DNA of 64,000 nucleotides from Desulfobotulus alkaliphilus (GTDB lineage: Bacteria; Desulfobacterota; Desulfobacteria; Desulfobacterales; ASO4-4). Numbering within the stretch: the stretch's first letter is position 1; each line of letters starts with the position of its first letter. The stretch covers positions 1-64,000 of the forward strand of contig NZ_VLLC01000003.1 of NCBI RefSeq assembly GCF_007830435.1, in the 5' to 3' direction. The notes under the pieces were generated by a model that was given only the letters and a program-made list of their open reading frames with translations, was not told the DNA's origin and made no database searches. Position numbers and translations under genes: made by a program. Below are positions 35,189 through 39,993 of this stretch, in pieces.

Positions 35189-35622
35189 TTATGTTTTTCC
35201 TTAATTATTTTTTTATTCTGATAAAAGAATATTTGTATATATTAATAAAATTTATTTTTCGCTCGATGTAGCTAAAAATGCCTGATTCTTGTAATTATGT
35301 TTGAAAAAAGTTGAAATTTTGCCGGGTGCATTTCGATTCTATTCGTATGTGTTAACCTGGCCAAATCATCAGGTATGGTGATTATAATAACATTTTTCAG
35401 ATATTATTTACCTGTTAAGGGTAGTTTTATCCTCTTTTGGTGTGTTTTCAACGGAACTTATATTCTGGCAGTGCATCTGTTTTCTTGAATAACAGCGAAA
35501 GCGGGATGCGCAAAGACCTTAATAAATCCTGATCTTATTTGAAATAAAAATATGAAAAATATGCATAAAAATCTTCTTTTTGTGAAGAAAATTTTTGTGA
35601 TAATTTTTTCATCTTCATATAA
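35189..35622. other. AT-rich intergenic region, nothing recognised
   Basis: About 430 bp between yqeY and the terminator of the next gene. No open frame with a ribosome site, no tRNA and no repeat of the interspersed family was found. It must include the yqeY promoter region. Confidence 0.5.
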
Positions 35623-35657
35623 AAAACGGCTTTATCCGAAAGGGAGTTAGCCGTTTT
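35623..35657 (-). terminator. Intrinsic terminator of the 35690-36079 gene
   Basis: On the minus strand AAAACGGCT and AGCCGTTTT form a perfect 9-bp stem (35657-35649 with 35631-35623), followed by further Ts. Confidence 0.8.
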
Positions 35658-35689
35658 CGATTCTTTATTTAAAAATAAGGAGTAAAAAA

Positions 35690-36079
35690 TCAGGGTTGCA
35701 GAGCACGCTCTGCATCTTCGTTACTGCTGTAAAAGTTGGGTTTCACCTGTTGCTGCTGCAAGCTTTTTCCCAGTTCCTCTCTTAGGGAAGCACTGGTGGT
35801 ATAACGGGTTACGCCCGCATAAAAGTGTTCCATCAGGCGATTGACCATATTTGTATAATTTTGCATAAGGTCTTGTTTTATATTAAAATTTTCATAATTT
35901 ACAATGGCATCTACACGTTTGTCAAGGTGGGAAAGCTGCTCTGCAACAAGAAACTCAATGCGGTGGATGTCCCTTTCACTGTCAATACTGTAGTTTTCAA
36001 AATTTACATAAAAACGATTTTTTTCAGGATCATAGCTAAAACGTTTTTCCAGTTTTTTTTCTTCGGCAGGATTTGTCAT
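35690..36079 (-). CDS. Stand-alone domain resembling the C-terminal tail of acetyl-CoA hydrolase/CoA-transferase-type proteins
   Basis: The protein has 129 residues, with the start at MTNPAEEKK (AGAGAGG six bases upstream). The pattern FYVNFENYSIDSERDIHRIE, followed by HLDKRVDAIVNYENFNIKQD and HFYAGVTRYTTSASLREELG, resembles the C-terminal segment of acyl-CoA:acetate CoA-transferase-like proteins. That segment carries a VNYDNF-type strand and a VTRYTTSAFLR motif. Here it is an independent gene with its own terminator. The catalytic Glu domain of such enzymes is absent, so it is likely a regulatory or partner protein. Family assignment rests on remembered motif similarity. Confidence 0.6.
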   Translation of the reverse strand: MTNPAEEKKLEKRFSYDPEKNRFYVNFENYSIDSERDIHRIEFLVAEQLSHLDKRVDAIVNYENFNIKQDLMQNYTNMVNRLMEHFYAGVTRYTTSASLREELGKSLQQQQVKPNFYSSNEDAERALQP

Positions 36080-36250
36080 TTGGACCTCTCTCTTATGAAG
36101 GGTATTTTTGACGGGTACCGGAAACGGCACCGGGCGGGAAAAGGATTTATTCCATATTAAACATAAGGCAGCTTATGGAGCAAGTATTTTTGAATATTTT
36201 TTTTAATATGGAAGTGAATATACATGGAAAAATAATAACATCATATTTTT

Positions 36251-36598
36251 TTATTTTATAAATAGAAAACGTTCATACATTTCTTTATGAAAGCCAACGA
36301 TAAGCGTATGATTAAAAGAAAGGGCTGGAGCCCTCAGATTACCTCCCGGACCTTTAATTTTGTCTGTAAAAAGTTTTTTTTCTGAAATTGTATTATTGAA
36401 TATGTAAAATTTTTTTCCTGAAGAAACGGCAATGGTTTCTATTGTTTCGAGAATTTTTTCTAACTGATCGTCTCCTATTTTATTTTTTCTGGCGTCCTCA
36501 ATTTCCATAAAAGTCATATTGTTTTCCCCGATCACGTCGAGGGCTTTCTGACAGGTTTTTCAGCCTTTACGGATGTAGGCCCATGGAATGGTATTCAT
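36251..36598 (-). CDS. ArsC-like (thioredoxin-fold) selenoprotein, UGA-encoded Sec at codon 13
   Basis: The true gene is 115 codons, starting at the ATG at 36598 (AGGAG eight bases before). It contains an in-frame TGA at 36562-36560, which ordinary gene calling takes as a stop, leaving a truncated product from an internal GTG or ATG. Read as selenocysteine it gives WAYIRKG-U-KTC-QKALDVI, a U-x-x-C redox motif where ArsC/Spx-family proteins have CxxC or CxxS. The rest fits the family, including NLRAPALSFNHTLIVGF near the end. A SECIS-like hairpin follows the UGA. It is 11 bp downstream of the DUF6489-like gene and probably co-transcribed. The likely role is thiol-disulfide or peroxide chemistry, not necessarily arsenate reduction. 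Confidence 0.82.
36526..36543 (-). promoter_or_regulatory. Bacterial SECIS-like hairpin
   Basis: Starting 16 bases after the UGA, the RNA CCCUCGACGUGAUCGGGG folds as CCC/GGG, one bulged U, CGA/UCG, and a five-base loop CGUGA. A bulged U in the stem and a GU in the apical loop are the two features needed for SelB binding in the E. coli fdhF element. The spacing from UGA to loop (about 23 bases) is inside the known range. Confidence 0.75.
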
Positions 36599-36609
36599 CA
36601 AAATAACTC

Positions 36610-36888
36610 CTATGCTTTATTTTTCTGTTTATCCGGGTCTGTTTTTTCCTGTCTGATGGAAAATTCCGGCTTGAGAAGACTCATATTTTTCATGGTCTGT
36701 TCCCAGAGGGTTTTTCCAACATCACCACCAGGAAAAACGATTTTCATAAGTTCTTTCGGATCCTGAGCGGCTTTGACTCTTGCCTGAAGATCCTTCATAA
36801 CTTCTTCATGAAAATTTCTCACATCCGGAAGCCCCATGGCTTCACGGATTTCTTCGGGCGTTGCTTCAATGGTGATATTTATTTTCAT
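36610..36888 (-). CDS. Small conserved protein, DUF6489-like
   Basis: The protein has 92 residues. The N-terminus MKINITIEATPEEIREAMGL followed by PDV resembles short proteins that begin with a beta strand and a TPEE-x-R-x-x-x-GLPD motif. The middle (FHEEVMKDLQARVKAAQDPK) is helical, and the tail is Lys/Gln-rich and probably disordered. Function unknown. It is the first gene of a two-gene unit with the ArsC-like selenoprotein, and the upstream promoter region ends at interspersed element E. Confidence 0.65.
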   Translation of the reverse strand: MKINITIEATPEEIREAMGLPDVRNFHEEVMKDLQARVKAAQDPKELMKIVFPGGDVGKTLWEQTMKNMSLLKPEFSIRQEKTDPDKQKNKA

Positions 36889-37025
36889 CGTTACTCCTGC
36901 ATAATGACGGACCCGATATGAAAGATCCGTTTTTTTAAAGTCATTTGTAACTGTTCAGCACAGTTTTTCATATCATACCTGCAAGACAGATGCACAGGCT
37001 CCAGGCTATTTGCCCGTGTCGCAAT

Positions 37026-37093
37026 CCGGCACTCAAGCTGAAAAACTCAAGCCCTTTACGGGAGCAGAAATGCCTATGGATCTTGAGTGCCGG
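37026..37093. repeat. Nested hairpin insert in the outer arm of copy E
   Basis: CCGGCACTCAAG (37026-37037) and CTTGAGTGCCGG (37082-37093) are perfect inverse arms. Compared with the other copies, only about three bases (CTT of GCAATCTTATTCG) were lost at the insertion point. Confidence 0.75.
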
Positions 37094-37231
37094 ATTCGGG
37101 AGCTTCTTGCCCTGTGCGGAAGCGGCAAAAACTCTCCGCCACAGGCAGGATAAGCTTTTTGATTACCATGGCAGGCTTAAGTACGCTGCCTTTGTGGCGG
37201 CTCAGACAGTTTGCCGCTTTTATAGCACTCA

Positions 37232-37297
37232 GGCACTCAAGCCTGAAAAAACTTATTATTTTTATAGCAGGCTTTAGGTTGCTGGCTTGAGTGCCGG
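37232..37297. repeat. Nested hairpin insert at the apex of copy E
   Basis: GGCACTCAAGCC (37232-37243) and GGCTTGAGTGCCGG (37284-37297) enclose an AT-rich loop. It occupies the same place as the insert in copy A, but with a different loop sequence. Confidence 0.7.
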
Positions 37298-37578
37298 AAT
37301 CCGAAACGATTGCAATGTCACTTTCAAATAGCCTCGGAGCCTTGCAACAGTACGAAGCTGCTGCAATGACAGCATTGGCAGTTCGAAATAAATTGTGCTG
37401 AATAATTACAGTCATTTTAGATAAAAAGGGATAAGAAAAATTAACAAAATATTGCAATATACCAGATGTATGTACAATATAAACAGATTTTTAATGTATT
37501 GGTTTCAATATATGGTGTTGTCTGCGTTTTTCAGAGTCCATTGGCTCTTTAAAAAATCATAACATGGGATAGTCCTGT

Positions 37579-38748
37579 ATGCAGCTTTATTTTTTTAAAA
37601 ATAATTTTTTTTTGTTTTCCGGTAATTATTTTTTTTATTTTCTGGTTCTTGGTGTTTATTTCCCATATTTTCCCCTCTATTGCCATTATGCTGGTTTTTC
37701 AGAAAATCAGATAGGCATAATAACCGCCTTAAAAACATTTTCTGCTATTTTTTTTCCGCTGATATGGGCATGGATTGCCGATCGTTTTCATATGCACCGG
37801 AGTGTTTTTTTATTGTGTCATTTCAGTTCTTTTATTTTATGGGGTTTCTTTTTTTTAACAGAATCTTTTTTGATGATGCTGCTGATTATGCTTGTATATG
37901 GTCTTTTTCACTCACCTCTTATTGGTTTTACGGAAGCCTTTACCGTTGGTTTTCTGGGAGGAAAAAAATCTGGATACGGGAATATCCGTTTATGGGGCTC
38001 CGTGGGCTTTATTATTGCCGTATGGGGCTGTGGTATTGCGCTGGATTTTCTGTCCCCCTCAATTGTGCTCTGGCTTGTTTTTTCAGGAAGTCTTGCGGGT
38101 GCATGGCTTGCCGTTTATACGCCTGTAAAAAAGAACAGTAATGTCCGGATTTATAAAAAAGATATCATCCGTCTTTTTTCCGGAAACAGTATGGTATTTT
38201 TACTGGTCACCTTTATTATGCTCATGAGTCATGGTGTTTATTACGGATTCTTTTCCATTCATCTTTCAAAAGCAGGGTTTTCAGGTAATTTCATCGGCTT
38301 TGTGTGGGCCATGGCCTCCATTGCAGAAATTTTTGTAATGCTTGGATCCAGATACCTGTTTTATTATTTTTCTTTAAAAAGCCTCATCCTTTTTTCTTTT
38401 GCGGCAGCTGTTCTTCGATGGTGTCTGCTTGCTTTTTCCATTGATCCCATGGTTATTGTTTTAAGCCAGCTTTTACATGCAATTACCTATGGCGTTTTTC
38501 ATATGACCACGATTCTTTATATGGATATTCTTGTGGATGCTGGTGCTAAAACCATAGGGCAGACCGTTCTGAATGCCAGCTCCTATGGCCTTGGACTGAT
38601 GGTTGGATACCTGGTTGGAGGTATGGGGTTTGCCGCTTTAGGTTCTGATATGTTTCTGGTCAGTGCCATAATGGCTTTTTCGGGAGGGGTACTGGCCATG
38701 GGCTTGCATTCTCTGAAAATTCATTCCAGTCAAGGCGGTACCCGGTAA
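37579..38748 (+). CDS. MFS transporter of the HcaT/MFS_1-like group
   Basis: The protein has 389 residues and about 12 hydrophobic helices. The motif GYGNIRLWGSVGFIIAVWGC in the middle of the first half is the YGxxRLWGSxGF signature of the phenylpropionate-permease-like MFS group. The opening LVLGVYFPYFPLYCHYAGFS and IGIITALKTFSAIFFPLIWA, then ADRF, also fit. The second half contains FGLGLMVGYLVGG-like helices. The substrate is unknown; members include HcaT and nucleoside/H+ symporter relatives. The stop codon lies inside the stem of the terminator. Confidence 0.85.
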   Translation: MQLYFFKNNFFLFSGNYFFYFLVLGVYFPYFPLYCHYAGFSENQIGIITALKTFSAIFFPLIWAWIADRFHMHRSVFLLCHFSSFILWGFFFLTESFLMMLLIMLVYGLFHSPLIGFTEAFTVGFLGGKKSGYGNIRLWGSVGFIIAVWGCGIALDFLSPSIVLWLVFSGSLAGAWLAVYTPVKKNSNVRIYKKDIIRLFSGNSMVFLLVTFIMLMSHGVYYGFFSIHLSKAGFSGNFIGFVWAMASIAEIFVMLGSRYLFYYFSLKSLILFSFAAAVLRWCLLAFSIDPMVIVLSQLLHAITYGVFHMTTILYMDILVDAGAKTIGQTVLNASSYGLGLMVGYLVGGMGFAALGSDMFLVSAIMAFSGGVLAMGLHSLKIHSSQGGTR

Positions 38749-38788
38749 AAATTTGTTAAATTATTAGAACTTTACCGGGTACTTTTTT
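38738..38788. terminator. Bidirectional terminator between the MFS gene and pyrE
   Basis: GTACCCGGTAAA (38738-38749) and TTTACCGGGTAC (38771-38782) form a perfect 12-bp stem followed by Ts. The TAA stop of the transporter gene is part of the left arm. Confidence 0.8.
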
Positions 38789-39377
38789 ATTTTAAAAAAT
38801 GTTCCATCAGTTCAGATCGTGTCAGTATGGCGGAAGCATCGGAGATATGCTGACGTATATTATCCATACCCCCCTCTTCCCTGTCCACCAATACAATAAC
38901 CTTGCAGACATCAAGGCCTGTTTCCATGGCTCTGTTGATGGCTTTGATGGTAGAGCCACCGGTTGTTGCAACATCATCTATGATTACCACCCTGTCACCG
39001 GGATTTACATCCCCTTCAACCCAGCGGATAAGACCATGATCTTTCTGCTCTTTGCGTATGGAAAAAGCCTGCAGTGGTTTACCCTTCAGGCCCGAGGCAA
39101 AGGCTGTGGCCATGGCTACGGGATCTGCGCCAAAGGTGAGTCCGCCTATGGCATGAACAGAACTGTTCTCCAGTTCTTCCATGATGAGATGGCCAATGAA
39201 AAACATTCCTTGGGGATCAAGGGCCGTTGGTTTGCAATTGATGTAAAAATTGCTTTTTTTTCCTGAAGCAAGGGTAAAACTGTCCGTTTCTGATACCTTA
39301 ACGGATTTTTTACATAAAAGATCGATCAGTGCTTTTTTCATGTCAGAAGGACTTTTGGGCAACTCTGTTGGATTCAT
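38787..39377 (-). CDS. pyrE: Orotate phosphoribosyltransferase
   Basis: The protein has 196 residues; I start at MNPTELPK, because upstream in-frame sequence reads as non-homologous leader. Motifs: [59 protein letters not shown] and the PRPP loop [19 protein letters not shown]. It makes OMP from orotate and PRPP in pyrimidine synthesis. The ribosome site is weak, so the exact start is uncertain. It is convergent with the MFS gene and is preceded upstream by element F. Confidence 0.93.
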
Positions 39378-39646
39378 GGGACGTCTTTTTCCGTGTGTTT
39401 TGATTTTATTATTGGAATTCAGTTTGTTATGACTGAAAACATGAAAAAGCAGGGGGAATGTCAGCAAACAATAAAGGTTAAGCAGCGTAACGCCAAACCT
39501 CTGCCGGATTGAAAGAAGTCTTGGGGTTTGGGGATCCGGCAGTGGTTTGCGGCAGAAAAAACTGTTGGTCAGCACTTTCCGCAGATTTTTTTATACCACG
39601 AAGGTCTGAGAAGGGTCAATAAAGGGACTTTTTGTTTTGTTTTTAT

Positions 39647-39993
39647 GTAATTATTCAGCACAGTTTATTCTGAACTGCCAAAGCTGTAGTTGCAGCAACT
39701 TCGTACTATTGCAAGGCTCCGTGGCTATTTGCAAGTGACATTGCAATCGTTTCGGATCAGAGCTTTGCTGGCCTGTGCGAAAGAAGCGGCAAACTGTCTG
39801 ACCCGCCACAAAGGCAGCGTACCAAGGCCTGCTATGGTAATCAAAAAGCTTATCCTGCCTGTGGCGGGGAGGTTTTGCCGCCTCCGCACAGGGCAAGAAG
39901 CTCCCGAATAAGATTGCGTCACGGGCAAATAGCCTGGGGCCTGTACATCTGTCTTGCAGGTATGGTACTTGGAAAACTGTGCTGAACAGTTAC
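39647..39993 (+). mobile_element. IS66-type MITE, copy F (full length, exact 8-bp duplication)
   Basis: At 347 bp this is a good reference for the intact form. It reads GTAATTATTCAGCACAGTTT at the left and AAACTGTGCTGAACAGTTAC at the right, flanked by GTTTTTAT (39639-39646 and 39994-40001). It is located between the divergent pyrE and ftsE genes. Confidence 0.93.

Follow-up and report, generated by a model that had tools for sequence, protein, structure and literature searches.

A gene of the catalogued family NF041106 in Desulfobotulus alkaliphilus very probably reads an internal UGA as selenocysteine

Does an in-frame UGA end a short reading frame in Desulfobotulus alkaliphilus, or does it encode the selenocysteine (Sec) of a thioredoxin-fold redox protein? 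The question arises in a window of 64,000 nucleotides (contig NZ_VLLC01000003.1, positions 1 to 64,000), which is the whole stretch of DNA that was analysed. A sequence-only reading had placed a hidden, ArsC-like selenoprotein at 36251-36598. The interval is right, and the strand, which had been left unstated, is the minus strand; several stops interrupt the plus strand across 36251-36598. The minus-strand frame 36598-36254 comprises 115 codons with a single in-frame UGA, starting from the ATG at 36598 and followed by TAA at 36253-36251. The UGA is codon 13 (36562-36560, minus strand), as had been proposed, and the claim that the frame stays open for 102 further codons is borne out by translation. 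With UGA translated as U, the product reads MNTIPWAYIRKGUKTCQKALDVIG...FLFIK and contains the anticipated U-x-x-C motif. The ribosome site that was said to lie upstream of the UGA was also found, as a Shine-Dalgarno-like AGGAG (36607-36611, minus strand) located 5' of the ATG, where it overlaps the TAG of the preceding gene on the same strand.

One possible answer is a true stop at the UGA, with a working protein that starts downstream and is no selenoprotein. A plain ORF call at the locus agrees with this answer, as it yields a frame of 94 residues with a GTG start past the UGA (36535-36251). This 94-residue frame encodes neither the nucleophile nor the initial strand of the fold predicted for the product, which argues against its being the working protein. 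The matter was pursued by comparison with homologues from whole genomes and from contigs.

A protein search of 96 genomes, that of D. alkaliphilus included, gave a match in 11. Ten of these 11 matches covered the start region and had exactly one UGA. The eleventh (L028, G015:C45) is a C-terminal fragment without start region or UGA, which is a decayed copy or results from a frameshift. The NCBIfam model NF041106 was searched against 395 genomes of the phylum, again including that of D. alkaliphilus, and matched in 36, of which 28 were over the cut-off. All 28 genomes displayed one internal stop each, always UGA. Of the eight matches below the cut-off, the two that were read, L057 and L058, are members of another family, and the six weaker ones were left out of the codon reading. 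Altogether, whole genomes contributed 37 full-length sequences of the family, the window included, and all 37 have UGA at the codon aligned with codon 13. These are 36 aligned rows and L048; the rows left out are L056, another copy of the window gene, the C-terminal fragment L028, and L057 and L058 of the other family.

When named genome contigs were scanned with the single protein, no relative was found. An alignment of 31 family members, restricted to the part after the UGA, favours neither Sec nor Cys at that codon and was also used as the query; at least 578 relatives were confirmed and the best 80 were kept. The scan pattern ended in LRAP, so that any relative without LRAP, Cys forms included, would escape it. 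Among the best 80 of the at least 578 relatives, UGA was found in 78 (73 by script and five read separately) and TGT in two, both by script. Homologues with Cys at the UGA position, for which the sequence-only reading had proposed a search, therefore exist. The count of 78 includes L094, where an extra in-frame TAG, due to a broken gene or an assembly error, is present in addition to the UGA at the codon. The whole-genome and contig sets have five identical proteins in common. No match to the window protein was found in phage records.

The peptide preceding the UGA and its ATG are conserved in the 36 aligned homologues, with the consensus MxIDWAYxRKG, in which W6, Y8 and R10 are invariant. The opposite pattern considered in the sequence-only reading, homologues starting only after the TGA, is not that of these 36 rows. 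For the region past the UGA, dN and dS were 0.108 and 0.481 relative to the congener G002, and 0.399 and 1.656 relative to the congener G001 (NG86). Judged from these substitution rates, the frame past the UGA is under purifying selection and is evolving as a protein.

A SECIS-like hairpin had been announced 16 bases past the TGA. There is indeed a hairpin (36526-36542, minus strand), the 5' arm of which begins 17 bases after the UGA. It consists of a 6-bp stem and a 5-nt loop with G in second position (CCUCGA-CGUGA-UCGGGG), positions 36542-36537 being paired with 36531-36526. Compared with dinucleotide shuffles, the window hairpin taken alone was not unusual (z of -0.31 over 43 nt and -0.56 over 71 nt), a result that is in keeping with a true stop; the hairpin of a congener was unusual (z of -2.50). 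Synonymous-codon shuffles were applied to the 36 homologues over a stretch of 36 bases, beginning four codons after the UGA codon. In this test, the window hairpin had a z of -2.64 (p 0.02). Over the 36 homologues, the mean z just past the UGA was -1.30, with p ≤ 0.1 in 42% of them, and the means at 17 other gene positions ranged from -0.52 to +0.37; a clear signal was found only just after the UGA among the 18 positions tested. The signal is uneven, since five of the 36 homologues (L027, L039, L044, L047 and L054) gave z values from -0.12 to +0.59. The register of the stem differs between clades, and column-wise covariation was left uncounted because of these shifts. No SECIS family was matched in an Rfam search of 35500-37500. 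The best Rfam match, an Enterococcus sRNA model, was set aside as a chance match of AT-rich sequence, with 26.5 bits versus a gathering score of 100. The comparison between homologues supports the hairpin as the putative SECIS of a bacterial selenoprotein gene.

With the UGA or, in two contig loci, a Cys codon at the same place in every full-length family sequence and best contig relative that was read, and with a conserved peptide ahead of it, a true stop is hardly credible. The gene very probably reads its one internal UGA as selenocysteine.

The genome of D. alkaliphilus, which is 98% complete, was inspected for selA, selB, selC (tRNA-Sec) and selD, as had been suggested, and all four are present. 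The matches to selA (626.5 bits), selB (372.2 bits) and selD (383.1 bits) are over their cut-offs, and the tRNA-Sec scored 75.4 bits versus a gathering score of 47. A selA match was found in 359 of the 395 genomes of the phylum and is so widespread that selA alone is not very informative. Twenty-six of the 28 genomes in which NF041106 scores over its cut-off also have a selA match. The other two, G386 and G459, are listed as 90% and 78% complete, and a missing contig may explain the absence of selA. The selD frame of D. alkaliphilus (L139, G000:C17:66531-67451) itself has one in-frame UGA, in the context AAGUAAKL. This selD is likely to be a selenoprotein as well, and a second gene of the genome thus seems to need Sec.

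The description of the selenoprotein as hidden does not stand, as NCBIfam has a dedicated model. The window protein matches NF041106 (ArsC_rel_Se_1, 'ArsC family (seleno)protein') with 99.8 bits for a cut-off of 85, over positions 1-107 of the 107 of the profile, and the model recognises each of the 36 aligned members with E ≤ 0.001. A member of the family is expected to have Sec or Cys as the leading residue of U-x-x-C, which is where the UGA is found at codon 13. A table in a 2026 review lists NF041106 as an 'Arsenate reductase-like protein' and UxxC selenoprotein (PMC13188914), and an entry in a 2022 review has the same protein name, with COG1393 and UxxC (PMC9312934). A 2006 survey credits Desulfotalea psychrophila with an ArsC-like selenoprotein, and Desulfuromonas acetoxidans with a distant homologue of ArsC (PMC1794560). 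Truncation by standard annotation, which had been predicted, does occur with a plain ORF call, but annotation using NF041106 need not truncate the gene because of the dedicated model. The gene is a correct selenoprotein gene in an already catalogued family, not a new family. The find is sound but ordinary, since the family is already in a public database and a review. What is gained is a correct gene model where a plain ORF caller yields 94 residues, together with a candidate for biochemistry.

The Cys forms were placed in a tree of 110 rows and 112 columns, in which 25 of the 102 inner branches are open. The two TGT rows (L119 and L134) form one clade (support 100/99), which adjoins the UGA row L052 (support 100/94), and selA is present in the genomes of both. 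These relationships fit a single replacement of Sec by Cys with the Sec machinery retained, the direction of change being assumed. In L119 and L134 the sequence at the SECIS position can still form a hairpin, with -8.9 and -11.2 kcal/mol, respectively, considering folding energy alone. The genus of the window is a long branch of the NF041106 family, with 1.62 changes per column, and because of this long branch the function of the lineage may have shifted. In the sequences read for the family, Sec predominates almost completely at this residue, and Cys is rare. Given this near constancy, identification of the substrate would reveal a reaction that strongly prefers Sec. A tentative extension, to which we give somewhat less than even credence, is that NF041106 is an almost wholly Sec-dependent ArsC-fold family with a dedicated substrate, of which the genus of the window has a fast-diverged version, possibly with a changed partner.

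Partners were sought in the gene neighbourhood. The upstream gene (36610-36888, minus strand, 92 residues) has a DUF6489-like N-terminal part (PF20099, 25.1 bits for a cut-off of 23.6, the match covering positions 1-38 of the 80 of the profile), and is probably in the same operon as the selenoprotein gene. The small downstream gene (35690-36130, minus strand) is an ORF with homologous ORFs in L019 and L020; it had no Pfam match over the cut-off and no NCBIfam match. The order of the DUF6489-like gene, the selenoprotein gene and the small downstream gene is kept in both congeners. No family-wide partner was seen among the 12 largest clusters of neighbours of the 80 contig loci (the best 80 of at least 578) and the window. 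Adjoining neighbour clusters are limited to one clade each (argC, bioF and comM-like, by eye), and the largest cluster (23 loci, sensor kinase-like by eye) lies at scattered distances. Within the window, 16 read-through frames were listed, the selenoprotein gene included; in the printed stretch of the other 15, inspected by eye, neither U-x-x-C nor C-x-x-U occurs at the UGA. Farther upstream, inverted repeats at 36971-37410 and 39646-39967 flank the genes at 37579-39575. The repeats, of 135, 112 and 56 nt, are 91-93% complementary and may represent a small mobile or repeat element in two copies.

The structure of the product was predicted with a mean pLDDT of 95.2 and a pTM of 0.88. The model has a predicted thioredoxin fold of the ArsC/YffB/Spx type. 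Foldseek ranks Spx chains at the top (6gho, E 1.8e-04), and Spx is also the best match of the sequence profile in the PDB (1z3e, E 6.6e-06). With VIA-align, the model superimposes onto a Bacteroides ArsC-family protein (3gkx) with a Z of 9.3 and an rmsd of 2.6 over 90 residues, onto YffB (1rw1) with a Z of 8.3 and an rmsd of 2.9 over 86 residues, and onto E. coli ArsC (1i9d) with a Z of 6.6 and an rmsd of 2.9 over 90 residues. Sec13 directly precedes the helix 14-25 in the predicted model, which is the place of the nucleophile in this fold. The residues W6, Y8, R10, Sec13, A36, G83, G86, L88, R89, P91, G102 and Y108 are invariant in the 36 rows. Cys16 is present in 33 of the 36 rows, and is replaced by Ser in L025 and L051 and by Thr in L026.

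That the product is a true ArsC-type arsenate reductase with Sec in place of Cys is suggested by the superposition onto E. coli ArsC and by the name 'arsenate reductase-like' of the 2026 review (PMC13188914). Against this, the protein scored 13.2 bits with PF03960, for a cut-off of 24, and TIGR00014 is not one of the 11 NCBIfam models matched at E ≤ 1. In E. coli ArsC, an Arg next to the conserved Pro helps bind arsenate; we take this residue to be Arg94. The profile alignment shows LRAP here versus LRRP in Spx and IKRP in YffB, and the residue before the conserved Pro is Ala in 35 of 36 members and Val in one, its register being taken from the alignment to Spx and YffB and not to ArsC itself. 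As Ala or Val replaces the Arg found at this position in Spx and YffB, arsenate reduction is unlikely. The term ArsC-like is thus apt for the fold but not for an arsenate reductase function, which we consider very improbable. The other family of the phylum encountered above (L057, 1468-1809, and L058, 1486-1830) is a second ArsC-type family with UGA at the catalytic codon. It has the motif W-x-(K/R)-U-T-T-C and RRP before Pro, and may have retained the Arg missing from the NF041106 family.

The protein could instead be a Spx-like redox regulator, in which the U-x-x-C pair would sense oxidants and which would putatively bind RNA polymerase. Spx heads both the profile and the Foldseek matches, and in both proteins the two redox residues, with two others between them, lie close to where helix 1 begins. 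The score with TIGR01617 is however 29.5 bits, for a cut-off of 75.05, and the second Arg of the LRRP motif of Spx is missing. A regulator of this kind is improbable, if slightly less so than an arsenate reductase.

The favoured reading, held with high confidence, is that of an NF041106 selenoprotein, with UGA13 read as Sec by way of the hairpin and a thioredoxin-fold redox product for which we infer Sec13/Cys16 chemistry. The product is most likely a selenol-based thiol-disulfide reductase. The hairpin, which starts 17 nt downstream, would direct SelB with Sec-tRNA to decode UGA13 as selenocysteine. Sec13, at the start of helix 1, would attack an oxidised substrate, whether a disulfide or not, and the resulting intermediate would be resolved by Cys16 as a selenenylsulfide. 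A cellular thiol or the thioredoxin system would then reduce the selenenylsulfide. The three members without Cys16 (L025, L051 and L026, of 36) would need an outside thiol.

Compared with known systems, the window protein is closest to the other members of NF041106, with which it shares a score over the cut-off and Sec at the same place in U-x-x-C. It differs from them in the divergence of its genus, with 27-43% identity to members outside the genus. The ArsC-like selenoproteins of the Deltaproteobacteria Desulfotalea psychrophila and Desulfuromonas acetoxidans are likened to the window gene by their description only (PMC1794560). YffB and ArsC (PF03960, TIGR00014) have the same predicted fold, whereas the window protein is below the PF03960 cut-off and has Ala, or in one member Val, for the Arg before Pro. 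Spx/MgsR (TIGR01617) likewise has the same fold and the redox residue at the same place, but the window protein is far below the cut-off of TIGR01617, with LRAP instead of LRRP and Sec instead of Cys.
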